The position numbers and the translations under genes were made by a program. The notes beneath the pieces are model-generated. The model worked only from the letters and a program-made list of their open reading frames with translations, was not told where the DNA came from and made no database searches. 20,128 bases of DNA from Acidobacteriaceae bacterium (lineage in GTDB: Bacteria; Acidobacteriota; Terriglobia; Terriglobales; Acidobacteriaceae): contig JASIJX010000069.1 in assembly GCA_030049955.1 (NCBI GenBank), positions 1 to 20,128 on the forward strand, given 5' to 3'. Positions 2,444-13,332 of the stretch are shown piece by piece (position 1 is the first letter of the stretch; the number at the start of each line of letters is the position of its first letter).

Positions 2444-2956
2444 ATGCCGCCCTCGGTCAATCTTGCAGGATCCTGGAAGCTGCTCGCCTGGCGCCGCATC
2501 GAGCAGGATGGCTCAACTACATACCCGCTTGGCGAAGATGCCACAGGCGTGTTGATCTACGCGGCCGACGGAAGCATGGCCGTGCAGATGACCGCGGCGC
2601 ATCGTCCTGCTATCCGTTCTGAAAATGCGCTCGGCGGCGACCTGCACGAGCGCGCCCAAGCCTACTCAACGTGCCTCGCCTATTTCGGCACGTGGGAGGT
2701 GCAGGCCGACACGGTCATTCACCGGCTCGACGCCAGCCTCTATCCCAACTGGTCCGGCACGCTGCAATCGAGGCCATTCGAATGCGACGGTTCCACACTG
2801 GTGCTGCGGACGCCGCCTTCCAGCGGCAAAGATGGAACCGTGGTGAATGAAATGTCCTGGTCACGAATTCCGACACGGGTTTCGACGCCGGCTACTGCGC
2901 GAGACCCGACAGTCGATCGGACCGCTGACTCGGCACTGGCCAAGTCAGGCGACTAG
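2444..2956 (+). CDS. Lipocalin-like domain protein
   Basis: A 170-residue protein with the lipocalin-like fold signature (Lipocalin_5 type): LAGSWKLLAWRRIEQDG at the N-terminus, TYPLGEDATGVLIYAADGSM, then YSTCLAYFGTWEVQADTVIH and LYPNWSGTLQ. Members are small cytoplasmic beta-barrels, often found beside oxidoreductases; the ligand is unknown. The domain is complete by about residue 140, and the remaining 30 residues (TRVSTPATARDPTVDRTADS...) are a polar tail. ATG 2444 is preferred because GAGGT (2433-2437) sits 6 nt upstream; an in-frame GTG at 2438 would abut that site. It lies 52 bp before the GH15 gene and probably opens the central operon. No signal peptide is visible. Confidence 0.7.
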   Translation: MPPSVNLAGSWKLLAWRRIEQDGSTTYPLGEDATGVLIYAADGSMAVQMTAAHRPAIRSENALGGDLHERAQAYSTCLAYFGTWEVQADTVIHRLDASLYPNWSGTLQSRPFECDGSTLVLRTPPSSGKDGTVVNEMSWSRIPTRVSTPATARDPTVDRTADSALAKSGD

Positions 2957-3008
2957 ATGCCAAGCGGCGCATCACGCACAAGACACGAAACGCGATGAGG
3001 AGGAATCC

Positions 3009-4436
3009 ATGAGCACAGCCACTATCGAAGCATCCGCTGTTGCAGCGGCGCCCGGCGCAGCCGTCCCCAGGCGGCATCACATGCACATCCGTGCCAGCGT
3101 GGCCACACCCCTGGCCACCATTCCGCGCGTGGGTCCGCAGATCATCGCACCCAACGGCGACTTCACGCGCATTGCGGAACACATGTTCTTCCTCATGCTG
3201 CGCAACGTCTCCAGCGACGGCTTCGCTTTCACCGATCCTCTGCACGCGGGAATCTTTTCGCTTCCCGGCTGCATCATCGCCGCGCCATCGTTCCCCGCCA
3301 ATACCGCGGGCATCGACCAGGATTACGTCTACAACTGGGTGCGCGATGCGGCACTCACGACAATGGAAATCGCCGCTGCCAATATTCCTCCTGTCGCGGC
3401 GAAGGGCGGGGTTGAGCCGCTCATCGACTATGTGAACTTTGCGCAGCTCTGCCAGAACAATGCGACGCCCACCATGGGCCACGCCTGCTTCACCGTCGAC
3501 GGCGAATCGCGCCCGTGGACCGAGCAGAACGATGGGCCGGCGCTGCAGTCTATCGCCGTGCTCAACGCGTACAATCAGCTCGACGCAGCGACACAGGCCA
3601 AGGCGAAGGCGCTCGTCACGCGCAACATCGAGTACCTGCTCGATGTCTATCAGCAACCAACCACCAACCTTTGGGAAGAGCATCAGGGCCAGAGCTTCTT
3701 CGCGCGGTCCGCGCAGCTCCGCTGCTTCCAGCTGATCAAGAAGAACTCGATCGGCGTGACTGTTCCACCGGCAATCGATGACGCCATCCAGTGGCTGCAG
3801 TCGGCGCTCGCGCAACACTGGAACGGAAGCATCTATGTCTCGTTGCTGCCCGCGCCGCAGGGCTACGACCCGAACATCGACATTCTCTGCGCCTGCATGT
3901 ATGGCGCCATTCCCTGCACCGATACAAAACTGCTGGCGACAGCAGCGCGGCTGCGCAGCCAGTGGGCAGACGATGGCTCGCCCTACCAGTATCCGATCAA
4001 CGCAGCCGACCACAAGCTCGGCCTCGGTCCGCTGCTCGGCCGCTATCCCGAGGATACTTACGACGGCGACATGGCGGACACCACGCAGGGCCGGCATCCG
4101 TGGGCGCTGTGCACCTGCAACCTAGCTGAGCTGTACTATCGCCTTGCTCACACCATTCCGCACCTTGGCAGTGTGCCCATCGACGACTTTTCTCAAGAGT
4201 TCTTCAATCAGGTGGGTGTAACCAGAGACACGCCTCTCGCGCAGGCGGCCAAGAGCCTGCAGGGCGCAGGCGACGCCATGATCGAGGCCGTGCTCTACCA
4301 CAGCGATCATCTGGAGCTCAGCGAGCAGTTCGATGGCGTTACCGGATATGAGAAGAGCGTGAAAAACCTTACCTGGAGCTATGCAGCATTCCTATCTGCC
4401 GTGCGCGCAAAGAGCGGCCTGAATGTGGAGGGATGA
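3009..4436 (+). CDS. GH15 family glucoamylase-like glycoside hydrolase
   Basis: A 475-residue glycoside hydrolase of family 15 (glucan 1,4-alpha-glucosidase type), an inverting exo-acting enzyme that frees glucose from non-reducing ends. Family motifs in order: DQDYVYNWVRDAALT (103-117), QNDGPALQ (173-180), NLWEEHQGQSFFARSAQ (220-236) containing the catalytic acid (Glu223 by analogy with the fungal enzyme), GRHPWALCTCNLAELYYRLA (361-380), and SEQFD (438-442) with the catalytic base Glu439, then VKNLTWSYAAFLSA. The (alpha/alpha)6 domain is complete and no starch-binding domain is present. The N-terminus is Ala-rich without a signal peptide, so it appears cytoplasmic, which is unusual for a starch-degrading enzyme and fits a small intracellular glucoside as substrate. 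ATG 3009 follows GAGGAGG by about 5 nt. The next gene starts 6 bp after the stop. Confidence 0.88.
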   Translation: MSTATIEASAVAAAPGAAVPRRHHMHIRASVATPLATIPRVGPQIIAPNGDFTRIAEHMFFLMLRNVSSDGFAFTDPLHAGIFSLPGCIIAAPSFPANTAGIDQDYVYNWVRDAALTTMEIAAANIPPVAAKGGVEPLIDYVNFAQLCQNNATPTMGHACFTVDGESRPWTEQNDGPALQSIAVLNAYNQLDAATQAKAKALVTRNIEYLLDVYQQPTTNLWEEHQGQSFFARSAQLRCFQLIKKNSIGVTVPPAIDDAIQWLQSALAQHWNGSIYVSLLPAPQGYDPNIDILCACMYGAIPCTDTKLLATAARLRSQWADDGSPYQYPINAADHKLGLGPLLGRYPEDTYDGDMADTTQGRHPWALCTCNLAELYYRLAHTIPHLGSVPIDDFSQEFFNQVGVTRDTPLAQAAKSLQGAGDAMIEAVLYHSDHLELSEQFDGVTGYEKSVKNLTWSYAAFLSAVRAKSGLNVEG

Positions 4437-4442
4437 TCCGCG

Positions 4443-4913
4443 ATGCAGCAGACCATCGAGAATTTTCTCGGCCTGTCGGCGCTGCTCACCGGCTTTGGCA
4501 GCGTGGTCCTCGCCGGCACCGGGATGACGGGCGAGTACCTTCGCACGCTCGCCGTCGCGCTGCCCACGGGAGTTCTGGAGGAGCTACTGGCTGGTTATGC
4601 AAAGCTGCCTTCCGGAGGCGCACACGATGCCGCCATCGAGTCCATGCTCCAGGATCCGAAACTTGGACCGGTGGCCCGGAACCTGATGTTGCTCTGGTAC
4701 ACAGGCGCGTGGACCAGTTTGCCCGCGATCTGGCACGACGTATACGGCGCCGCGCCGGCTGATAAATCGGGCGTGGTTTCAGCCGAAGCCTATCAGGCAG
4801 GGTTGCAATGGATTGCAGCCGGCGCACACGCTGCGGGCAGCGCGCAGCAGGGCTTCGGAGCGTGGAGTCTGCCGCCGGACTTATCGAATCTGCCACCGGA
4901 GAGGAGCCTGTGA
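4443..4913 (+). CDS. Sorbitol-dehydrogenase-type small subunit (FAD-SLDH family), copy 1
   Basis: A 156-residue protein resembling the small 'hitchhiker' subunit of FAD-dependent sorbitol/fructose/glucose dehydrogenase complexes. Seen features are FLGLSALLTGF at the N-terminus, LGPVARNLMLLWYTGAW in the middle, and AYQAGLQWIAAGAHAAGSAQQGFGAW near the end. These parallel the family's LLTGR, LFAFYSG and W-x-x-IGAHPPG blocks. In known complexes this subunit carries a Tat signal and escorts the folded flavoprotein across the membrane; no twin-arginine or hydrophobic signal is present here. Its stop overlaps the GMC start (TGATG at 4911-4915), so the two are translationally coupled and are probably partners. 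GGAGGG lies about 10 nt before the ATG. A second copy lies at 9845. Confidence 0.65.
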   Translation: MQQTIENFLGLSALLTGFGSVVLAGTGMTGEYLRTLAVALPTGVLEELLAGYAKLPSGGAHDAAIESMLQDPKLGPVARNLMLLWYTGAWTSLPAIWHDVYGAAPADKSGVVSAEAYQAGLQWIAAGAHAAGSAQQGFGAWSLPPDLSNLPPERSL

Positions 4914-6751
4914 TGGCCGCATCCCCGATGTCTCCCGAGGTCCAGCACGATGTTGTGATCGTCGGCGCGGGCGTTGCAGGCGCGCTGGTGGCCAAGCATC
5001 TCACGCGCGCCGGATTTCGTGTGCTGGTGCTCGAAGCCGGTCCTGATACCGCGGCCAGCTTCGACGGCTACATGCAACATCTGGCGCAGTTCTACGCAGC
5101 AGCCAGTAAGGGTCCGGAGTCCGCGTGGACACCTGACCCCAACGCGCCGCAACCCGATACTGCAAACCTGCGTAACAACGATGGCTATTTCGTGCAGAAG
5201 GGCCCCGATCTTTACGGCAGCAGCTATACGCGCGCGCAGGGCGGATCGACTCTGCACTGGCTGGGCGTGTGCCTGCGCATGCTGCCGGAGGATTTTGCGC
5301 TGCGTACGCATTACGGCGTAGGCCGCGACTGGCCGCTCACCTATGAGCTTCTCGAGCCTTACTACCGCAAGGCCGAGTACGAAATCGGCGTCTCGGCGAA
5401 CGTCGAGGACCAGCGGTATTTCGGTCACATCTTTCCGCGCGATTACGACTATCCCATGGAGCGCGTTCCGCTGAGTTACTCCGACCAGGCGCTGGCTACG
5501 GCCATTAACGGCATGAAGGTGCAACTTGGCGGCGACCCGATCGCGTTGCAGGTGCGCAGCTACCCGGCTGGCCGCAACTCCACGCCGCGCGGCAGCTATC
5601 AGCCGGTGGCAGCCGCCGATGTGCGGGGTGGGGGCCAGGTAGTTCCCATGTACATCGGGCAGCGCTGCGCCGGCAACACCTCCTGCACGCCCATCTGTCC
5701 CATCCAGGCCAAGTACAACGCGGGAAAGACTCTGGCGCAGGCGGATCGCAGCAAGCTCGAGGTGCTGGCGCGAGCCGTAGCTTCCAAAATCAACGTTGAT
5801 GCGGCAACGGGCCGCGTGGAGAGCATCACATACCAACGCTACGGCAGCGATGGCGTGACAGCGCACACGGCCAAGGCGCGCATTTATGTGCTGGCCGCGC
5901 ACGCTGTGGAGAATGCCAAGCTGATGCTGGCCTCCAGCCTGGGCGGCGGCAGAAGCCCGGTAGGCAAGACACTCATGGATCATCCGGCGCTGTATGCGTG
6001 GGGTCTTGCGCCGCAGCCGGTCGGCGCGTTTCGCGGGCCACTTTCTACCGCAGGCATTGAAGACCTGCGCGGCGGCACATTCCGAGCCTCGCATGCTGCC
6101 TTCCGTTTCGACATCGGCAACGATGGCTGGCGTGCCACCACCGGCGCGCCCGATTCCACCGTATCCGAGGCAGTGCTCAACCAGGGTCTCTGGGGTCAGC
6201 GGCTGCGCAGCCAGCTTGCCTCCACGCTTTCGCGCCAGGTGCGCTTCTCGCTTGCTGTCGAGCAACTGCCGGACACGGATAACGCCGTCACCATCGACCC
6301 GCGCTATACCGATCCGCTCGGCAATCCGCGGCCTGTCATCAGCTACGCGGTTGGCGTGTACACGCTGGCCGGCATGTTCGTCGCCACCAGCGTTTACAAA
6401 CAGATCTTCGAACGAGCCGGCATTACCGACTGCAGCACCGCAAGCGACAGCCTGTGGTTTCCTTCCGCGCAGTTCGGCACCACAAGGTTTCATTACCACG
6501 GCATGGGCCACTTCTCCGGCACGCATGCCATGGGCACGCACCCGGGCGACTCCGTTGTCGATACCTCGCAACGCGCGTGGGGGCACCCTAACCTTTACCT
6601 GGTCGGTTCAGGCAGTTTTCCCACCATGGGCACATCAAACCCCACGCTGACGCTGGCTGCGCTAGCCATCAGAACAGCGGAGCGACTGGTGAGCGAGCTC
6701 ACAACCAGAGAGCAGATCGCGCAGCCGGTAGCGGCGGCGAATCGCGGCTAA
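4913..6751 (+). CDS. GMC-family FAD-dependent dehydrogenase, copy 1, with [3Fe-4S]-type Cys motif
   Basis: A 612-residue GMC oxidoreductase. The Rossmann FAD motif is VVIVGAGVAG (14-23) with E41 at the end of beta2. The stretch GGSTLHW (110-116) matches the family's second flavin segment. The C-terminal domain carries GHFSGTHAMG (532-541, active-site His) and GTSNPTLT (573-580, active-site Asn). C252-x5-C258-x3-C262 (RCAGNTSCTPICPIQAKY) matches the cysteine pattern that binds a [3Fe-4S] cluster in FAD-glucose dehydrogenase alpha subunits, so electrons probably leave by the cluster instead of going to oxygen. The probable reaction is oxidation of a sugar or cyclitol hydroxyl to a ketone or lactone; the substrate is unknown. 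There is no signal peptide. It starts inside the stop of small subunit 1. It aligns clearly along its length with the next gene. Confidence 0.85.
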   Translation: MAASPMSPEVQHDVVIVGAGVAGALVAKHLTRAGFRVLVLEAGPDTAASFDGYMQHLAQFYAAASKGPESAWTPDPNAPQPDTANLRNNDGYFVQKGPDLYGSSYTRAQGGSTLHWLGVCLRMLPEDFALRTHYGVGRDWPLTYELLEPYYRKAEYEIGVSANVEDQRYFGHIFPRDYDYPMERVPLSYSDQALATAINGMKVQLGGDPIALQVRSYPAGRNSTPRGSYQPVAAADVRGGGQVVPMYIGQRCAGNTSCTPICPIQAKYNAGKTLAQADRSKLEVLARAVASKINVDAATGRVESITYQRYGSDGVTAHTAKARIYVLAAHAVENAKLMLASSLGGGRSPVGKTLMDHPALYAWGLAPQPVGAFRGPLSTAGIEDLRGGTFRASHAAFRFDIGNDGWRATTGAPDSTVSEAVLNQGLWGQRLRSQLASTLSRQVRFSLAVEQLPDTDNAVTIDPRYTDPLGNPRPVISYAVGVYTLAGMFVATSVYKQIFERAGITDCSTASDSLWFPSAQFGTTRFHYHGMGHFSGTHAMGTHPGDSVVDTSQRAWGHPNLYLVGSGSFPTMGTSNPTLTLAALAIRTAERLVSELTTREQIAQPVAAANRG

Positions 6752-6841
6752 GGCTGAGCACGAAAATTTTCCCCTCACTGCAGTTGTTTCGGGCTCGTCT
6801 CCGGCAGAGGCCGGTTGATATCCCAGGGCAGGAGGAGCGAC

Positions 6842-8788
6842 ATGATTTTTCCGGCGGGCGCGGCAAAAAGGACCACGAGTGAAGCGGTGCAGGGCGAAAT
6901 CTATGACGCGGTCATCGTCGGCGCCGGCATCTCCGCATCGCTGATCGCATACGAGCTCAGCCGTGCCGGCAATCGCGTGCTCATGCTCGAGGCCGGCCCC
7001 GGCGAAGACATCACGCTCAACGGCTACCTTGGTTATCTCGAGCGGTTCTACGGCGCCGTCTCCAAAGATAATCAGGCGCCCTATCCGCCAAATCCCAACG
7101 CGCCCATGCCGCGCAGCACTGACGCGCAGAAAATCGAGCCCGGCCATCCAGCAACATCAGCCTACCTCGTGCAAACCGGCCCGTTTTCGACCGACACCAC
7201 GTACACGCGCGTCCTCGGTGGCACCACGATGCATTGGGAAGCGAAGACGCTGCGTATGCTGCCGGAAGATTTCAAAATGCGCAGCCGCTTCGGGCAGGCG
7301 CAGGACTGGCCGCTCGAATACGACGATCTGGACCAGTATTACGAGATGGCCGAGCATGAGATTGGCGTCTCCGGCGACGTGGAGGGACAAAAACAGATCG
7401 GCATTCCGTTCTCTGACGGCTACGTTTTCCCGATGTACGAAATGCCGCTCTCTTATCTCGATCAGATGGTGGCCCGCGGCATCGACGGCACCAGCGTGTC
7501 GCTGGCCGGCGAAAGCTACAAGCTGAAGGTGCGCACGTTTCCGCAGGGCCGCAACGGCGTTCCCAATCCAAAATACGATCGCGGCAAGAGTTTCTCGCCC
7601 ACCGGAGCGGTGAGCACCAGCCAGGTGGAAATAGGCGGCCGCTGCCAAGGCAACAACAACTGTGTGCCCATTTGCCCCGTGCAGGCCAAGTACCACGCGG
7701 GCAAGACGCTGGCCAAGGCACTGCAAACGGGCAAGGTCGACATTCTCGCGCAGGCCGTCGCCTCGAACGTCGTCGTCGACCGCGCAAACGGCGTCGTCAA
7801 GTACATCGAGTACAAGCACTATAACGATCCGCAGAGGCCCGAATACACCACCGGCAGAGCGCAAGGGCGCATCTTTGTGCTGGCTGCCAACGCCATCGAA
7901 AATCCGCGCCTCATGCTCTCCTCCGGACTGCAAATGCAGAACGGACTGGTGGGCTGCAACCTGATGGATCACGCCTACCTGCTGAACTGGGCGCTGATGC
8001 CGGTGGACTGCGGAACCATGCGCGGCACCAACTGCACGGGCGGAATCGTGGACCTGCGCAGCGGGTCATTTCGCAATAGACAGGCAGCCTTCAGCGTTGA
8101 CATTCACAACGACGGCTGGGGCTGGGCTACCGGCTCACCGTTCTCCGATCTCGTTCAGCTTGTCGATGCGGAAAACAGGTTCGGCCGCAGCCTGCGCCAA
8201 GAGCTCGCCCGGCGTATCACGCGCCAGCTCCTGCTGGCTTTCATGATCGAGGTGCTGCCCAGCCAAAGCAATCGAGTTTCCATCGATCCGGCGTACCGCG
8301 ATCCGCTCGGCAACATGCGGCCGGAGATCTCCTACAACGTTCCCGAGTACAGCATGCGCGGCGCGGCTTACGCGCGCCAGTTCGCGCAGCTCATTTTCCA
8401 GCGCCTGGGCGCCGCCGACTATACCGCCTATGACGCTTCCGATTACGGCTACATCACGCACGAGGGCGTGGGCTACATCATCCGCGGCGGAAATCACCTT
8501 GCCGGAACTCACTCCATGGGTTCCGACAAGAGCAACTCCGTGGTCAACCGCGACCTGCGCTCATGGAACCACGAGAACCTTTACCTGGTAGGCGGCGGAA
8601 GCATGCCCACCATCGGCACTGCCAACGTCACCCTCACCATCGCCGCGCTCTGTTATCGCAGCGCCCGCGCCATGATTGCGCAACTGGCCCGTGAAACGAG
8701 CATTGCCACCCGTGTCGTTACCCGCGCCTCCATCCCTGCAAAACGAGGAGAAAAACATGCCGTCGCCCACACTGCCCGCAAGAATTGA
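6842..8788 (+). CDS. GMC-family FAD-dependent dehydrogenase, copy 2, with [3Fe-4S]-type Cys motif
   Basis: A 648-residue paralogue of the preceding GMC protein. It has AVIVGAGISAS (23-33) for FAD binding and E50, GGTTMHW (126-132), C268-x5-C274-x3-C278 (RCQGNNNCVPICPVQAKY), NHLAGTHSMG (551-560) with the active-site His, and GTANVTLT (592-599) with the active-site Asn. Substrate-side segments differ from copy 1, for example an insertion around residues 92-107, and Asn replaces Gly just before the catalytic-loop His. The two enzymes may therefore act on different substrates or positions. GGAGGAG lies about 6 nt before ATG 6842. A 90-bp gap separates it from copy 1, the largest gap near the redox genes. 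Its last 32 nt overlap the ferritin-like gene, and the basic tail (RVVTRASIPAKRGEKHA...) is beyond the conserved domain. Confidence 0.85.
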   Translation: MIFPAGAAKRTTSEAVQGEIYDAVIVGAGISASLIAYELSRAGNRVLMLEAGPGEDITLNGYLGYLERFYGAVSKDNQAPYPPNPNAPMPRSTDAQKIEPGHPATSAYLVQTGPFSTDTTYTRVLGGTTMHWEAKTLRMLPEDFKMRSRFGQAQDWPLEYDDLDQYYEMAEHEIGVSGDVEGQKQIGIPFSDGYVFPMYEMPLSYLDQMVARGIDGTSVSLAGESYKLKVRTFPQGRNGVPNPKYDRGKSFSPTGAVSTSQVEIGGRCQGNNNCVPICPVQAKYHAGKTLAKALQTGKVDILAQAVASNVVVDRANGVVKYIEYKHYNDPQRPEYTTGRAQGRIFVLAANAIENPRLMLSSGLQMQNGLVGCNLMDHAYLLNWALMPVDCGTMRGTNCTGGIVDLRSGSFRNRQAAFSVDIHNDGWGWATGSPFSDLVQLVDAENRFGRSLRQELARRITRQLLLAFMIEVLPSQSNRVSIDPAYRDPLGNMRPEISYNVPEYSMRGAAYARQFAQLIFQRLGAADYTAYDASDYGYITHEGVGYIIRGGNHLAGTHSMGSDKSNSVVNRDLRSWNHENLYLVGGGSMPTIGTANVTLTIAALCYRSARAMIAQLARETSIATRVVTRASIPAKRGEKHAVAHTARKN

Positions 8789-9848
8789 TTCGGTCGAAAG
8801 ACTCTGCAAGTACCTGTATCACGCGATGCAGATCGAACACTCGACCCTGCCGCCGTATCTGCTGGCGCTCTATTCCATTCATCCGGGAACCAACCTGGAC
8901 GCGGCGCAGGTGATCCGTGCGGTAGTCGTGGAGGAGATGCTGCATCTCACGCTCGCGGCCAACCTGCTCAACGCCGTCGGCGGCAAACCCGACCTCACAT
9001 CGCCGGATTTCGTCCCGCTCTATCCGGCCTACCTGCCCGATGGCGAAGACGATTTCGAAGTCAGCCTCACGGCGTTTTCGAGAGAAGCGCTCGAAACCTT
9101 CATTAAGATCGAGCGGCCCAGCCCCGCGCCCAGTGAAGCCACGCGGCTCGTACGCCGTCCGCCGAAGGTTTCGGCCATGGCCGCCGCGCCAGATGATACA
9201 GGACTGCATTTTTACAGCATTGGCGAGTTCTACGAGGAGATCCGCCGCGGCTTCGACCATCTGCACGACAAGCTTGGCGACAAGAAACTGTTCACTGGCG
9301 ATCCCGCCCGCCAGGCCGACTCGCGCTACTACTACTCCGGTGGCGGCAGGCTCTTTCCGGTCACCGACATTAAATCCGCGCGCGAAGCCATCAACCTGAT
9401 CATCGAGCAGGGCGAAGGCTTTGGCGGCGGAATCTACAACGATGAGCACGAGCTCGCGCACCTCTACCGCTTCGAGCAACTGCAGAAGCAACGCTACTAC
9501 CAGAAGGGCGACAGGCCGGGCAATCCAACCGGCCCCGCGCTCACCGTCGACTGGAACGCCGTTTATCCCATCAAGAAAAACGCGCGCCTCACCGACTATC
9601 CCGAGTCATCGGAGCTGCACGCGGTGGCAATGGCCTTCAATGGAGCGTATGCCGAGTTCCTCGACCTGCTCACGCGTGCCTACAACGGCAAGCCGGAGTT
9701 GTTGCTCACGCAAGCAGTTCCGCGCATGTTCGAGCTGCGCAACCGTATCAATCAACTCATTCGCAACCCGGTTCCGGGTCTGGAGGGCGTCAACGCCGCG
9801 CCCACTTTCGAAATGGCCGGCGTATTCGCCGCGGGGGTGCCGGCATGA
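8757..9848 (+). CDS. Ferritin-like diiron protein (VioB/RebD iminophenyl-pyruvate dimer synthase domain type)
   Basis: A 363-residue protein whose N-terminal part matches the 'Ferritin-like' domain first defined in VioB and RebD, which couple two oxidised amino-acid units. Candidate metal ligands are E27-H28 in MQIEHSTLPPYLLALYS, E60-x2-H63 in VVVEEMLHLTLAANLLNA, a Glu in EFYEEIRRGF (158-166), and E232-x2-H235 in HELAHLYRFEQL. Together these make two carboxylate/His pairs, as in a four-helix diiron site. VioB itself is far larger; stand-alone versions of about 350 residues are widespread and uncharacterised. No tryptophan-dimer pathway genes are nearby, so a pigment role is unlikely. ATG 8757 follows GAGGAG by about 6 nt; the gene overlaps GMC copy 2 by 32 nt and small subunit 2 by 4 nt, implying coordinated production. 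Confidence 0.78.
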   Translation: MPSPTLPARIDSVERLCKYLYHAMQIEHSTLPPYLLALYSIHPGTNLDAAQVIRAVVVEEMLHLTLAANLLNAVGGKPDLTSPDFVPLYPAYLPDGEDDFEVSLTAFSREALETFIKIERPSPAPSEATRLVRRPPKVSAMAAAPDDTGLHFYSIGEFYEEIRRGFDHLHDKLGDKKLFTGDPARQADSRYYYSGGGRLFPVTDIKSAREAINLIIEQGEGFGGGIYNDEHELAHLYRFEQLQKQRYYQKGDRPGNPTGPALTVDWNAVYPIKKNARLTDYPESSELHAVAMAFNGAYAEFLDLLTRAYNGKPELLLTQAVPRMFELRNRINQLIRNPVPGLEGVNAAPTFEMAGVFAAGVPA

Positions 9849-10309
9849 TGGACCAGTTCCTTAACCAATTTCTTCCATTCTCGGCCGAGCTTACCGCTTT
9901 CCGTGCCTTCGAGCTGCTGGGCACGGGCCAGGCACAGACGTATCTCGCCGCTGCGCGCAAGGTTGTCGGCGACGATCTGCTCAACGAGCTGTTCACGGCC
10001 TGGGCGTCCATTCCTGCAGGCGATTCGGACGAGCGCGAGGCCGAAATACGCCGACGGATTCTTGGCGACGAAAAGCTTGGCCCCATTGCGCGCAATATCG
10101 TCAAGCTCTGGTTCACCGGCGTCTGGTATGAGCTGCCCCGCGCCTGGAGCGAAACCTACGGAGCACGCGAAAACGACGCAACGTTCGTTGCTGCGCCCGC
10201 AGCCTACGCGGAAGGACTGCTGTGGACCACGATCGGCGCGCATGCGCCCGGCGCCAAAGCGCCTGGATACGGCTCATGGACGGGCCCGCCGGTGATTCCG
10301 CCGGCCTAA
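9845..10309 (+). CDS. Sorbitol-dehydrogenase-type small subunit (FAD-SLDH family), copy 2
   Basis: A 154-residue paralogue of the small subunit at 4443. Shared blocks are an N-terminal FLPFSAELTAFRAFELLGTG, then DEKLGPIARNIVKLWFTGVW, and AYAEGLLWTTIGAHAPGAKAPGYGSW near the end. It is the likely partner of GMC copy 2, though separated from it by the ferritin-like gene. It has no Tat motif or hydrophobic signal sequence. Its ATG overlaps the ferritin-like stop (ATGA, 9845-9848); a second ATG follows immediately. Identity of the family is inferred from these motifs and from adjacency to GMC genes. Confidence 0.65.
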   Translation: MMDQFLNQFLPFSAELTAFRAFELLGTGQAQTYLAAARKVVGDDLLNELFTAWASIPAGDSDEREAEIRRRILGDEKLGPIARNIVKLWFTGVWYELPRAWSETYGARENDATFVAAPAAYAEGLLWTTIGAHAPGAKAPGYGSWTGPPVIPPA

Positions 10310-10372
10310 CAGAATGCAGGTGCACCTGAAACTCAACCGGCAACACATTGAGATAAGGAGAATCAACGGATC

Positions 10373-11287
10373 ATGAGCACACCTGGCAACCTATTCAGCC
10401 CGCAAAAAATCAAGCTTGGCATTACGCCAACGCTTTGGTGGAACGACGACTTTCCTCTCATCGACATCGGCATCCCCTTCGAGCAGTGCGTGAGCGAGAT
10501 GGCGCTGGCCGGCTTCCACGGATGCAGCATAGGCCACAAGTATCCTACTGAGCCTTCCGTGCTCGAGCGCGAGCTCACACTCCGCGGCCTGAGAGTCTCC
10601 GAGCCCTGGGTGAGCACCTATTTCACGATCAAGTCCATGCGGCAACAGACCATCGAGAATTTCATCAAGCAGATGCAGTTCATCAAGCAGATGGGCGCAA
10701 GCGATATGGTGGTGGCTGAGTTCGGCCAGGCCGTCAATCCGCTGCCGGTTGCCGTCTTCGCCAACCGTCCCATCTTCACGGACGAGCAATGGAAGGATCT
10801 GCTCGACGGTCTGAGCGAACTGGGCAAGATGGCGAACGCCAACGGCCTGCACCTCTGCTATCACCCGCACATGGGCACCGGCGTCATGATCAAGGAAGAT
10901 GTGGACCGGCTGATGCAGAACACCGACCCCGACCTGGTGCACCTGCTGCTCGACACCGGCCATCTGGCCTTTGCCGGCGCCGATCCTCTCGAAGTCACCG
11001 TCCAGTACGGGCCGCGCATCAAGCACATCCATCTCAAGGACGTCCGCTCCAAGGTGGTCAAGCGCGTGCGCGACGAAGGACTGTCGTTCGAGCAGGCCAT
11101 CGAAGCCGGTGTTTTCACAGTTCCCGGCGACGGCGACATCGACTTTCCGCCCATCTTCCGCGCGCTCGACGAGGCAGGCTTCCAGGGCTGGCTGGTGGTG
11201 GAAGCCGAGCAGGATCCGGCCAAGGCCAATCCGCTCGAGTACGCCTCCATGGCGCGAACCTATTTGCGCAAAGAACTTGGATGGTAA
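10373..11287 (+). CDS. iolE: IolE-like sugar isomerase/dehydratase (myo-inosose-2 dehydratase family)
   Basis: A 304-residue TIM-barrel protein of the xylose-isomerase-like superfamily, closest by eye to IolE, which dehydrates 2-keto-myo-inositol. Recognised stretches: KIKLGITPTLWWNDDFP (12-28), IPFEQCVSEMALAGFHGCSIG (34-54), LCYHPHMGTGVM (161-172), LLLDTGHLAFAGADP (191-205), IKHIHLKDVR (216-225) and LVVEAEQD (274-281). The D194, H197, H218/H220 and E277 positions fit a divalent-metal site. Length equals IolE (about 300). No other inositol gene (iolG, iolB, iolC, iolD) is in the window, so the substrate could instead be another keto-cyclitol or keto-sugar made by the adjacent GMC enzymes. AAGGAG lies about 11 nt before ATG 10373. 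The gene ends 28 bp before the next TIM barrel. Confidence 0.72.
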   Translation: MSTPGNLFSPQKIKLGITPTLWWNDDFPLIDIGIPFEQCVSEMALAGFHGCSIGHKYPTEPSVLERELTLRGLRVSEPWVSTYFTIKSMRQQTIENFIKQMQFIKQMGASDMVVAEFGQAVNPLPVAVFANRPIFTDEQWKDLLDGLSELGKMANANGLHLCYHPHMGTGVMIKEDVDRLMQNTDPDLVHLLLDTGHLAFAGADPLEVTVQYGPRIKHIHLKDVRSKVVKRVRDEGLSFEQAIEAGVFTVPGDGDIDFPPIFRALDEAGFQGWLVVEAEQDPAKANPLEYASMARTYLRKELGW

Positions 11288-11315
11288 CTTTCCGCAACCG
11301 ACTTGGATGGTAGCT
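11275..11315 (+). repeat. Short direct repeat spanning the iolE-like stop
   Basis: Two 15-nt copies of ACTTGGATGGTA[A/G]CT (11275-11289 and 11301-11315), period 26, differing at one position. The first contains the last codons and stop of the iolE-like gene; the second ends directly before the ATG of the next gene and supplies its leader, whose GGATGG may serve as a weak ribosome site. Confidence 0.7.
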
Positions 11316-12329
11316 ATGGCAATCGCGACAAACAATGACTTGCTGTTCAGCTTCTTCATGTTTACGGTCGATCTGCAGCCGGAGAACCCGGCCTACACGC
11401 CGACGATCGTACGCCACATGAAAGCGCTCGTGGCGATGGGCTATGACGGCTTCGATTTGCCCATCGCTCCCTGCGCCACGCTCAACCATCGCCACGAAGT
11501 AGAAAATTACAAGCGCCTGCGCGGAGCTCTCGACGACGCCGGCCTGGGTGACCTGAAGGTGACGACGAACGTTGCGGCCACGCGCACCTTCGACCCGTCG
11601 TCGATGTACCGCGAGCAGCGCGAAATTGCGCTTGCGTATCTGAAGTCGCGCGTCGATATCACCCGCGCGCTGCGCGGCGAAATCATGGCTGGCCCCATCG
11701 TTCTGCCCTACGGGGTCTTTCCTACCACGGATGCAAACCAGCCCATCTGGAGCGACGCGCTGCAGGAGTGGCTGGCGGCGCGCTATCGCAATGCCGAGCC
11801 CGTGCTGGAGGCGCTTAGCGAACACGCGGTCACGCAGAACGTCAAGGTGGCCATTGAGCCGGTGGACCATTGGGAAACACCCGCGCCCAACATGGTCTCT
11901 GACGTCCTCCGCTTTCTCGATGGCGTGGCCAATCCGCAGATGGGCGTCTGCGTGGACAGCGCACATGTCGTCCTGGGAAGCGACGGGCCGGCAACATTTA
12001 CCAAGAACATAGAACTGGCCCTCGATGCCGGATGGCTGCACTACGTGCATCTCTCGGCGCCCGACCGCGGCGCGCTCGCCGCCAGCTGGATTCCGTGGAA
12101 GCCGTTCCTCAAGCCCATCGCCGGCCGTTACCAGGGGCCGTATCTGGTGGAGGTTTTCAACGCCATCCCCGTGTTTCTCAACCCGCTGCGCATCACGCGC
12201 CGCAAATTCTGGATTCCGGACGAAGACAATCCGGTGAAGGATTCACCGGATGCCTACACCGTCGCGCGCGAAGCGCTGGCCGAAGTGCGAAGCCAACTGC
12301 CAGCCGTTGCCTTACCTGTTCCGGTGTAA
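11316..12329 (+). CDS. Sugar (phosphate) isomerase/epimerase, D-tagatose 3-epimerase-like TIM barrel
   Basis: A 337-residue AP_endonuc_2-type TIM barrel. Metal-site candidates are E181 (VKVAIEPVDHWETP), D214 and H217 (VCVDSAHVVLG), H245 (LHYVHLSAPDRG) and E279 (PYLVEVFN). The Glu-Asp-His-Glu order and the 33-residue Glu-Asp spacing match D-tagatose/D-psicose 3-epimerases, which invert C3 of a ketose through a metal-bound enediolate. Related proteins also eliminate or isomerise 3-keto-glycosides, so the actual reaction is open. It is longer than typical 290-residue epimerases because of an extended C-terminus (after residue 290). The ATG at 11316 has only GGATGG upstream; a later ATG (11358, MFTVDL) is less likely because LLFSFFMFTVDL is part of the first strand. 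The next gene is 49 bp away. Confidence 0.72.
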   Translation: MAIATNNDLLFSFFMFTVDLQPENPAYTPTIVRHMKALVAMGYDGFDLPIAPCATLNHRHEVENYKRLRGALDDAGLGDLKVTTNVAATRTFDPSSMYREQREIALAYLKSRVDITRALRGEIMAGPIVLPYGVFPTTDANQPIWSDALQEWLAARYRNAEPVLEALSEHAVTQNVKVAIEPVDHWETPAPNMVSDVLRFLDGVANPQMGVCVDSAHVVLGSDGPATFTKNIELALDAGWLHYVHLSAPDRGALAASWIPWKPFLKPIAGRYQGPYLVEVFNAIPVFLNPLRITRRKFWIPDEDNPVKDSPDAYTVAREALAEVRSQLPAVALPVPV

Positions 12330-12378
12330 GATCGCGTTCCGGCAGCTCCAATTCACCGCGCCTGAAAGGACATTTTCG

Positions 12379-13332
12379 ATGACCACCACCGTGCGCACCA
12401 CCCGCCTCGGCCGGGCAATCGTTCCTGAAGATGAGCAGTCCCTTGCCGACCGCAACGTCACGTCGTACCGTGCGGCCTCCACGCATCTTGCCACGGCAGA
12501 GCGGCTCGGCCCGCTGCAGGATCTTCCCGGCTTTTGGGAGGGCGTTGGATTCAGCCTCATCGCGCGTCCGGATTTCTCCAGCGGAAACAAGAACGGATTC
12601 TTCCTGGAGTTGAACATTCTGCGCGAAAGCCTCATGTTCACCACCATCGGCTCGCCGGTGATGAACCGCGGCAGCCAGCAGGAAGATATCGCAATTTTCG
12701 GACTCACCTACTTGCATCGCGTCACCGACGCGCTCACCGGTGGCGCTCTGCACATCGAGCCCGGCACTTGGCTCAACATCCCAAAGACCACCGTTCCCAA
12801 ATCACCCGCCAGCATCGCGCGGCTCTTAACCATACCCCATGGAAACGCGGTGTGCACTTACGGCCACTCGGAGGACGTCGTCTTTCAGGGCCTGCCCGAC
12901 ATTCCACCGGCGAACACTGTTCCCTTCATCATCGGCAGCAACACGCCGGCGCCCGGAACCGAGAATCCGTATCCGGAGTTCAACCTGAGCGTGGAATCTG
13001 AATTCCGCACCAGCCCGCTGCACCCCAACATCACGCAGGCCTTCGTCAACGATCCGAACGAGATGCTTCGCCAGGCGCTCCAGGGTCAGCACCTGACCAA
13101 AATCATCCGCCTCATCACCAACACGGCCGAGATCAACGGCACCTGCAACATTCCGTTCATCGAGAAAAATGCAGACACGCCCAGCCTCGAATCCGTTTTC
13201 GCCATCGAAACGGTGCAGAACCCTGGCGGCGACGACTTCCTCCAACTGCAGTACTCGCAGACGGCGATCTTGAATTTTCGCGGAATGAGCTTCCCGCACG
13301 TGACGGTGGGAACGCTGATCAAAGCGTTCTAA
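12379..13332 (+). CDS. Conserved protein of unknown function (FWEGVGF/HIEPGTW motif family)
   Basis: A 317-residue soluble protein that I cannot assign to a characterised family. Striking stretches are LPGFWEGVGFSLIARPDF (48-65), FFLELNILRESLMFTTIGSP, EDIAIFGLTYLHRV, ALHIEPGTWLNIP, TIPHGNAV, and the C-terminal LQYSQTAILNFRGMSFPHVTVGTL. The alternating beta-rich pattern and single Trp/Gly motif near the start suggest a beta-barrel of lipocalin or nitrobindin style. I recall similar fungal and bacterial proteins carried under the loose name 'heme-binding protein', but I cannot confirm heme binding. There is no signal peptide. AAAGGA lies about 9 nt before ATG 12379. It is the last gene of the central block, followed by a strong hairpin. 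Confidence 0.6.
   Translation: MTTTVRTTRLGRAIVPEDEQSLADRNVTSYRAASTHLATAERLGPLQDLPGFWEGVGFSLIARPDFSSGNKNGFFLELNILRESLMFTTIGSPVMNRGSQQEDIAIFGLTYLHRVTDALTGGALHIEPGTWLNIPKTTVPKSPASIARLLTIPHGNAVCTYGHSEDVVFQGLPDIPPANTVPFIIGSNTPAPGTENPYPEFNLSVESEFRTSPLHPNITQAFVNDPNEMLRQALQGQHLTKIIRLITNTAEINGTCNIPFIEKNADTPSLESVFAIETVQNPGGDDFLQLQYSQTAILNFRGMSFPHVTVGTLIKAF

Follow-up and report, generated by a model that had tools for sequence, protein, structure and literature searches.

A conserved bacterial gene cluster with a predicted role in sugar oxidation and dehydration

Is a row of ten genes that joins a glucoamylase-like enzyme, two GMC flavoproteins, a ferritin-like protein and two TIM-barrel enzymes a system in its own right and, if so, what might it make? 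The row lies on contig JASIJX010000069.1 of an Acidobacteriaceae bacterium (GenBank assembly GCA_030049955.1), in a stretch of 20,128 nucleotides that we refer to as the window. Here we report that the ten genes form a conserved system and are not a row brought together by chance. The core consists of a GMC flavoprotein (gmcB), its small subunit (ssB), a ferritin-like protein (fer), an IolE-type dehydratase (iolE) and a second TIM barrel (tim2). It is accompanied by a GH15 enzyme and, in some genomes, by optional genes for a second GMC flavoprotein with a small-subunit partner (gmcA and ssA), a lipocalin-like protein (lip) and an FWEGVGF protein (hemeFMP) (Table 1). We tentatively propose, with somewhat less than even confidence, a cytosolic pathway that would convert glucose from an intracellular alpha-glucan into an oxidized, dehydrated sugar product. 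The proposal builds on gene content, co-occurrence, replacements and folds, from which we infer every reaction, the oxidation at C2, the electron flow, the order of steps and the product.

Each of the families is known, and so are pathways that first oxidize and then dehydrate a sugar. The combination of genes, the replacement of parts and the link to the Rai quorum-sensing genes of Rhizobium appear to be undescribed as far as our searches go: the first-pass annotation knew of no described pathway with this set, and the titles and opening abstract lines of the open-licence papers searched likewise contain no description of it. A compact cluster that is spread over seven phyla, that also occurs on plasmids (many typed as conjugative) and in which parts are exchanged one for another bears the hallmarks of a defined pathway that has yet to be studied, and the replacements yield testable predictions of the role of each enzyme.

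Conservation of the cluster across bacteria

Relatives were collected with a gmcB alignment from data with one genome per species, and the loci of the best 80 of 146 relatives were searched for each window protein at score thresholds of our own choice. The loci are distributed across Actinomycetota, Pseudomonadota, Bacteroidota, Planctomycetota, Myxococcota, Nitrospirota and Cyanobacteriota. gmcB was found in all 80, fer in 79, ssB in 78, iolE in 73, tim2 in 65 and GH15 in 54. Some absences stem from contigs that end within the cluster (L018 and L055), and in one Flammeovirga locus (L066) the apparently missing iolE was located just outside the fetched stretch; among the three Flammeovirga loci with such a miss, the flanks beyond that stretch were checked for L066 only. 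The order gmcB–fer–ssB on one strand is present in 73 of the 80 loci and continues with iolE–tim2 in 57.

Searches of whole groups of genomes gave a reciprocal result. Among 199 genomes from the family of Rhizobium sophoriradicis, tim2 occurs in six and gmcB in the identical six, on one contig each and within approximately 6 kb (two of these, G007 and G008, are seeds already known as L034 and L035). The phylum of Streptomyces monashensis (Actinomycetota; 296 genomes) contains tim2 in two genomes and gmcB in those two plus one more, in a test for which G003 was already known beforehand. tim2 was restricted to the seed genome among 149 genomes from the phylum of Singulisphaera (Planctomycetota), and gmcB, among 345 Bacteroidota genomes, to the seed and a distant relative at 42% identity. 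On the basis of the reciprocal tests with tim2 and gmcB, the cluster is sporadic and tightly linked, which is the pattern expected of a unit that is moved together. gmcB-like proteins are encoded in 141 plasmid records, 76 of which are typed as conjugative (other GMC enzymes account for the more-distant matches). tim2 relatives are encoded in 95 records, 65 of them conjugative.

The repeated co-occurrence in other genomes on which the first-pass annotation had staked its ten-gene block is therefore strong and reciprocal; what did not stand is the notion of one fixed set, as the data instead indicate a core with four optional genes. These four (lip, ssA, gmcA and hemeFMP) occur together in 13 of the 80 loci and never separately. 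A metallo-beta-lactamase-type (MBL) hydrolase and a thiamine pyrophosphate (TPP) enzyme form a different add-on, found together in 44 loci, never as a split pair and never with gmcA. The hypergeometric chance of zero overlap between the two add-ons is 7e-6, a value that is too small given shared descent; the genus Rhizobium contains both types. Of the 13 loci that carry lip, ssA, gmcA and hemeFMP, 10 also have GH15 and therefore all ten window families, with the caveats that the GH15 match in L027 is short (60 bits) and that lip and GH15 of L003 are on the opposite strand. Three plasmids that were fetched later (L082, L086 and L087) also have all ten families, some genes of L082 being in pieces.

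Several clusters depart from the common form. A Streptomyces and Saccharothrix group (L056, L063, L064, L067, L068, L072, L073, L076 and L079) has a divergent ssB (75–88 bits), no hydrolase and no MBL–TPP pair, and two of its members (L056 and L073) have only a short or weak match to IolE. L024 and L067 are two clusters in a single Saccharothrix genome (NZ_MTQP01). In the Flammeovirga clusters (L066, L069 and L070), ssB is flanked on either side by a gmcB-like gene. In a cyanobacterial version on a Gloeothece verrucosa plasmid (L083, 1181–17324), genes for galactose-oxidase-like, DJ-1/PfpI, VOC and Dyp-type peroxidase proteins separate tim2 from gmcB, with a glucan 1,4-alpha-glucosidase encoded downstream.

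A predicted route from alpha-glucan to a dehydrated sugar

In the pathway that we propose, glucose would first be released by GH15 or, in other clusters, by a debranching enzyme and/or GH63. The GH15 protein has the Pfam domain of its family and three glutamates (E223, E224 and E439), which we take to be catalytic and which are conserved in at least 93% of 55 sequences. GH15 is the sole hydrolase in 52 of the 80 loci, and both kinds of hydrolase occur in 2. The 26 loci without GH15 comprise 13 with a glycogen-debranching enzyme (GDE; scoring 429.2 against an NCBIfam cut-off of 364.15) and/or a GH63/MGH1-like enzyme and 13 with neither, so that GH15, GDE or GH63 is present in 67 loci. Because debranching enzyme and GH63 replace GH15 in the hydrolase slot, the substrate is probably an alpha-glucan, and because signal peptides are absent (a hydrophobicity scan of the GH15 N terminus found no obvious one), this glucan is probably intracellular. 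The hydrolysis step of the first-pass annotation is thus kept, whereas its glucoside gives way to a better guess, glucose from glycogen or maltodextrin.

The second step would be carried out by gmcB–ssB, an FAD- and iron–sulfur (Fe–S)-dependent dehydrogenase that may oxidize a ring carbon, most likely C2, to yield glucosone. A CX5CX3C motif is present in gmcB (C268, C274 and C278, which align with cysteines of glucose and fructose dehydrogenase) and in gmcA (C252, C258 and C262; 14 of 14 sequences). ssA and ssB match no Pfam or NCBIfam model; a small-subunit profile gave one weak match among solved structures (E = 0.063) and Foldseek alone returned nothing at E = 0.001. A second look with VIA-align showed that the fold of ssB resembles that of dehydrogenase small subunits, the hitch-hiker subunits. 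The window thus has in common with the FAD glucose and fructose dehydrogenase complexes (6a2u, 8hdd and 7w2j) the sequence of the large subunit, the CX5CX3C cysteines and the fold of the small subunit. It differs from them in that no cytochrome c was detected among the 17 window proteins scanned with Pfam, that a crude pattern search of residues 1–60 of ssA and ssB turned up no twin-arginine motif, and that a ferritin-like gene lies between the subunit genes.

The ferritin-like protein carries candidate metal ligands by sequence (E27, E60xxH63, E220 and E232xxH235, conserved in at least 95% of 80 sequences) and scores 225.7 bits against a PF12902 cut-off of 22.3. Given that the window proteins scanned include no recognizable cytochrome, we conjecture, as the simplest option, that fer accepts electrons from the GMC dehydrogenase, in which case they may flow from the Fe–S cluster to a diiron site and on to O2. 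We know of no such electron acceptor in this enzyme class; if fer does take the electrons, this would be of relevance to glucose-sensor enzymes. A Ruegeria locus (L085, 9498–12960) has a divergent trio of small subunit, GMC protein and ferritin-like protein without iolE or tim2, with an adenylate/guanylate cyclase gene nearby. The trio on its own fits the view that GMC protein, small subunit and ferritin-like protein are one unit.

Ferritin-like and haem-type proteins could also belong to a redox or stress-protection module, in which GMC, ferritin-like and haem proteins make or remove reactive species, sugar serves as reductant and dehydrated sugars are by-products. The fold of hemeFMP, a nitrobindin-like beta barrel, would suit this, as would fer itself and the Dyp-type peroxidase beside the Gloeothece version; yet the haem protein is present in just 13 of the 80 loci, compared with 73 for IolE and 65 for tim2, and we give the module the lowest probability of any reading considered here. 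A sequence search with hemeFMP found no match among solved structures. Its relatives by fold presumably include the C-terminal domain of THAP4, Arabidopsis nitrobindin and Rv2717c; compared with nitrobindins, hemeFMP is about twice as long and of low identity (15–21%), and its binding of haem is putative. H307, near the C terminus, is invariant in 27 sequences. The suggestion that the FWEGVGF protein binds reactive intermediates loses ground, as a nitrobindin-like barrel is not evidently a carrier of sugar intermediates.

The steps after oxidation would fall to the two TIM barrels. By score, iolE belongs to the IolE family (Table 1), which removes water adjacent to a ketone, and in the proposed third step it would dehydrate the keto-sugar as with scyllo-inosose. 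This likeness raises a variant inositol or cyclitol pathway, in which GH15 would free a cyclitol from an alpha-glucosyl-cyclitol, gmcB would form an inosose, IolE would dehydrate it, and the roles of isomerase and ring-opener would go to tim2 and, elsewhere, to the TPP enzyme. The IolE score and the membership of the TPP enzyme in the IolD superfamily (83.4 bits, far under the cut-off of 715) speak for it. The TPP enzyme is nevertheless nearer to indolepyruvate decarboxylase (258.4 bits, itself under a cut-off of 946), a debranching enzyme in the hydrolase slot is ill-suited to a glucosyl-cyclitol, and the alternation described below is not accounted for. Among 20 cluster-bearing genomes drawn from the 80 loci, 10 have all three of IolE, IolB and IolD; the other 10 have IolE without IolB and IolD over their cut-offs, which is where the likeness to myo-inositol catabolism ends, so that in half of these genomes standard inositol breakdown cannot be the task of IolE. 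The cyclitol branch of the first-pass annotation is weakened by this count, and we consider such a pathway very unlikely.

In a tree of 55 IolE rows (that of the window, 40 of the 73 IolE proteins from clusters, 3 further cluster-type and 11 other proteins), six rows that adjoin IolB or IolD belong to a group of eight that separates from the cluster rows (support only 81/58). Three other rows (L110, L117 and L118) are placed among the cluster rows, the tree carries a long-branch warning, and we did not rely on it.

The alternation concerns tim2. Eight of the 80 loci have, in place of tim2 (65 loci), a propeller of the aldos-2-ulose dehydratase (AUDH) type; none has both and seven have neither. 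The propeller matches PF22301 and the fungal AUDH 4a7k (E = 6.4e-60), and all 8 bacterial propellers share four invariant histidines, each opposite a histidine of 4a7k in the alignment. The hypergeometric chance of zero overlap is 2e-7, again too small given shared descent, and the genus Aquimarina contains both types. No AUDH domain was detected among the 17 window proteins. As tim2 alternates with an aldos-2-ulose dehydratase, the intermediate is suggested to be a 2-keto-sugar, glucosone, and the epimerization or dehydration that had been assigned to the TIM barrels narrows to dehydration or isomerization of such a sugar. A Singulisphaera genome (L002, G001) speaks against a strict alternation: it has a tim2 cluster and also an AUDH domain elsewhere (contig C5, 5901848–5902375; 81.9 bits). 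The reverse tests with AUDH are thin. Three of 20 genomes scanned for it have the domain, two inside the cluster and one, Singulisphaera, outside it; among the 345 Bacteroidota genomes it was found in 5, of which one match is strong (the seed) and four are weak (28–32 bits).

The same alternation bears on a catabolic or scavenging route by 3-oxidation, in which an alpha-glucoside or maltodextrin would be oxidized at C3 by gmcB, with the TIM barrels in the roles of 3-keto-glycoside lyase and hydratase. Fe–S GMC glucoside 3-dehydrogenases with a small subunit exist, AP2-type TIM barrels are the lyase and hydratase families of 3-keto-glycoside pathways, and IolE is weakly similar to the 2-hydroxy-3-keto-glucal hydratase 8ro4 (E = 3.8e-9). 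However, IolE is much nearer to the IolE structure 3cny, and tim2 is nearer to 2qw5, a structural-genomics xylose-isomerase-like TIM barrel, presumably from Anabaena variabilis, of which it is a close relative over 326 residues. Moreover, the AUDH alternation indicates a 2-keto-sugar, and no sugar uptake system recurs in the annotated plasmid loci. We regard 3-oxidation as unlikely.

Under the glucosone pathway, tim2 (or, elsewhere, the AUDH propeller) would in a fourth step perform a second dehydration or an isomerization. By our arithmetic, glucose less 2H and two H2O gives C6H6O4, a formula shared by anhydro-cortalcerone and kojic acid. The second GMC pair, the lipocalin and the haem protein or, elsewhere, the TPP enzyme and the MBL hydrolase may work up the product in a fifth step. 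Hydrolysis, GMC oxidation to a keto-sugar and TIM-barrel chemistry, as outlined in the first-pass annotation, thus remain the most coherent scheme, once glucoside and cyclitol are dropped.

A comparable route exists in fungi, in which pyranose 2-oxidase and aldos-2-ulose dehydratase reportedly convert glucose through glucosone to cortalcerone, work ascribed to Koths in 1992 (a reference of PMC11650716). The fungal and the proposed route both start from alpha-glucan or glucose, oxidize with a member of the GMC superfamily and continue with a dehydratase, and some bacterial clusters have the AUDH propeller itself. In contrast to the fungal route, the oxidizer of the cluster is an Fe–S dehydrogenase with a small subunit and a ferritin-like protein, IolE is an extra enzyme, and tim2 replaces AUDH in the window. 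Fungal AUDH, which has cupin and lectin domains, is 900 residues in length, whereas the bacterial protein has 421 and matches residues 79–432 only.

The quorum-sensing neighbourhood in Rhizobium

In Rhizobium etli CFN42, genes for an acyl-homoserine lactone (AHL) synthase and a LuxR protein lie directly upstream of the cluster on plasmid p42f, and in R. etli CIAT 652 the adjoining genes are annotated as raiI and raiR. According to the literature, raiI and raiR are located on pRetCFN42f (PMC4125696), few strains have raiIR and the genes that it regulates were unidentified as of 2014 (PMC4149787), and Rai has been tied to no phenotype except AHL production in R. leguminosarum bv. viciae, with a nodulation effect in R. 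etli (PMC5977203).

RaiI relatives are present in 99 plasmid records. Among the matches listed (60 each for RaiI and tim2), 56 records are common to both, with the two genes 7.6 to 8.1 kb apart, and three of the other four listed RaiI records have gmcB 2.3 to 2.4 kb from RaiI. Judged by the position of tim2 or gmcB, at least 59 of the 60 listed plasmids with RaiI (out of the 99) have the cluster nearby, CP050553.1 being the one left. The cluster is therefore a concrete lead on the genes under raiIR control.

In our most specific reading, a horizontally mobile pathway turns glycogen into a signal or antibiotic, a pyranone akin to cortalcerone or kojic acid at the level of C6H6O4; a ferritin-like diiron protein replaces cytochrome c as terminal acceptor of a cytosolic FAD/Fe–S dehydrogenase, and in Rhizobium the pathway is the missing output of RaiI and RaiR. 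We hold this combination to be quite unlikely as a whole. As to the Rai output in particular, adjacency to raiIR is no proof of regulation of the cluster, and the fetched stretch of 68 of the 80 loci contains no relative of the two LuxI query proteins. The 12 loci with LuxI-type relatives are all from Rhizobium (L041 weakly, at 30 bits), and no relative was detected among the window proteins scanned.

A luxR/luxI pair of different sequence is located upstream of the cluster in Rhizobium sp. T1473. This plasmid copy (L082, 7614–19575) is of the full type, with GH15 and gmcA each split in two and with insertion sequence elements and the luxR/luxI genes nearby, and has the appearance of a decaying copy.

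Gene layout and surroundings in the window

The ten open reading frames are all on the forward strand between 2444 and 13332, and their coordinates, together with Pfam and NCBIfam scans, confirm the direction and families first assigned to them.

Table 1 Genes of the cluster in the window, with predicted products and best evidence
Gene	Predicted product	Position	Strand	Evidence
lip	Lipocalin-like protein, 170 aa; optional	2444..2956	+	PF13924, E 8.5e-31
GH15	Glucoamylase-like enzyme, 475 aa; putative alpha-glucan hydrolase slot	3009..4436	+	PF00723, E 5e-35
ssA	Small-subunit partner of gmcA, 156 aa; optional	4443..4913	+	39% identity to ssB
gmcA	First GMC flavoprotein, 612 aa; optional	4913..6751	+	PF05199/PF00732; glucose dehydrogenase 6a2u_B, E 3.4e-75
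gmcB	GMC flavoprotein, 648 aa; core	6842..8788	+	PF05199/PF00732; 6a2u_B, E 1.2e-70
fer	Ferritin-like protein, 363 aa, putative diiron site; core	8757..9848	+	PF12902, E 8.4e-67
ssB	Small subunit of gmcB, 154 aa; core	9845..10309	+	Fold like fructose dehydrogenase small subunit
iolE	IolE-type dehydratase, TIM barrel, 304 aa; core	10373..11287	+	TIGR04379, 365.7 bits (cut-off 290); 3cny, E 9.2e-73
tim2	Second xylose-isomerase-like TIM barrel (AP_endonuc_2), 337 aa; core	11316..12329	+	PF01261; 2qw5, E 2.9e-124
hemeFMP	FWEGVGF protein, 317 aa, nitrobindin-like barrel; optional	12379..13332	+	NCBIfam 'heme-binding protein', 250.3 (cut-off 150)

The junctions noted at first pass also agree with the coordinates: TGATG at 4911 (stop and start overlapping by 1 nucleotide), an overlap of 32 nucleotides at 8757–8788 and ATGA at 9845; the remaining gaps are 52, 6, 90, 63, 28 and 49 nucleotides. 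The start of tim2 is a choice between 11316 and 11307. A scan of the window for promoters and terminators gave no signal exceeding shuffled background; the ten genes are probably co-transcribed.

Upstream of the cluster, the window encodes a DUF5996 protein (781–1884; 393.4 bits) and, on the opposite strand, a zf-UBP domain protein (402–872). Downstream, between 13929 and 19903, are genes for a HAD-like protein with a weak match to a Tat-type (twin-arginine) signal, a mechanosensitive channel, two proteins without a Pfam match and a LuxR-type response regulator.

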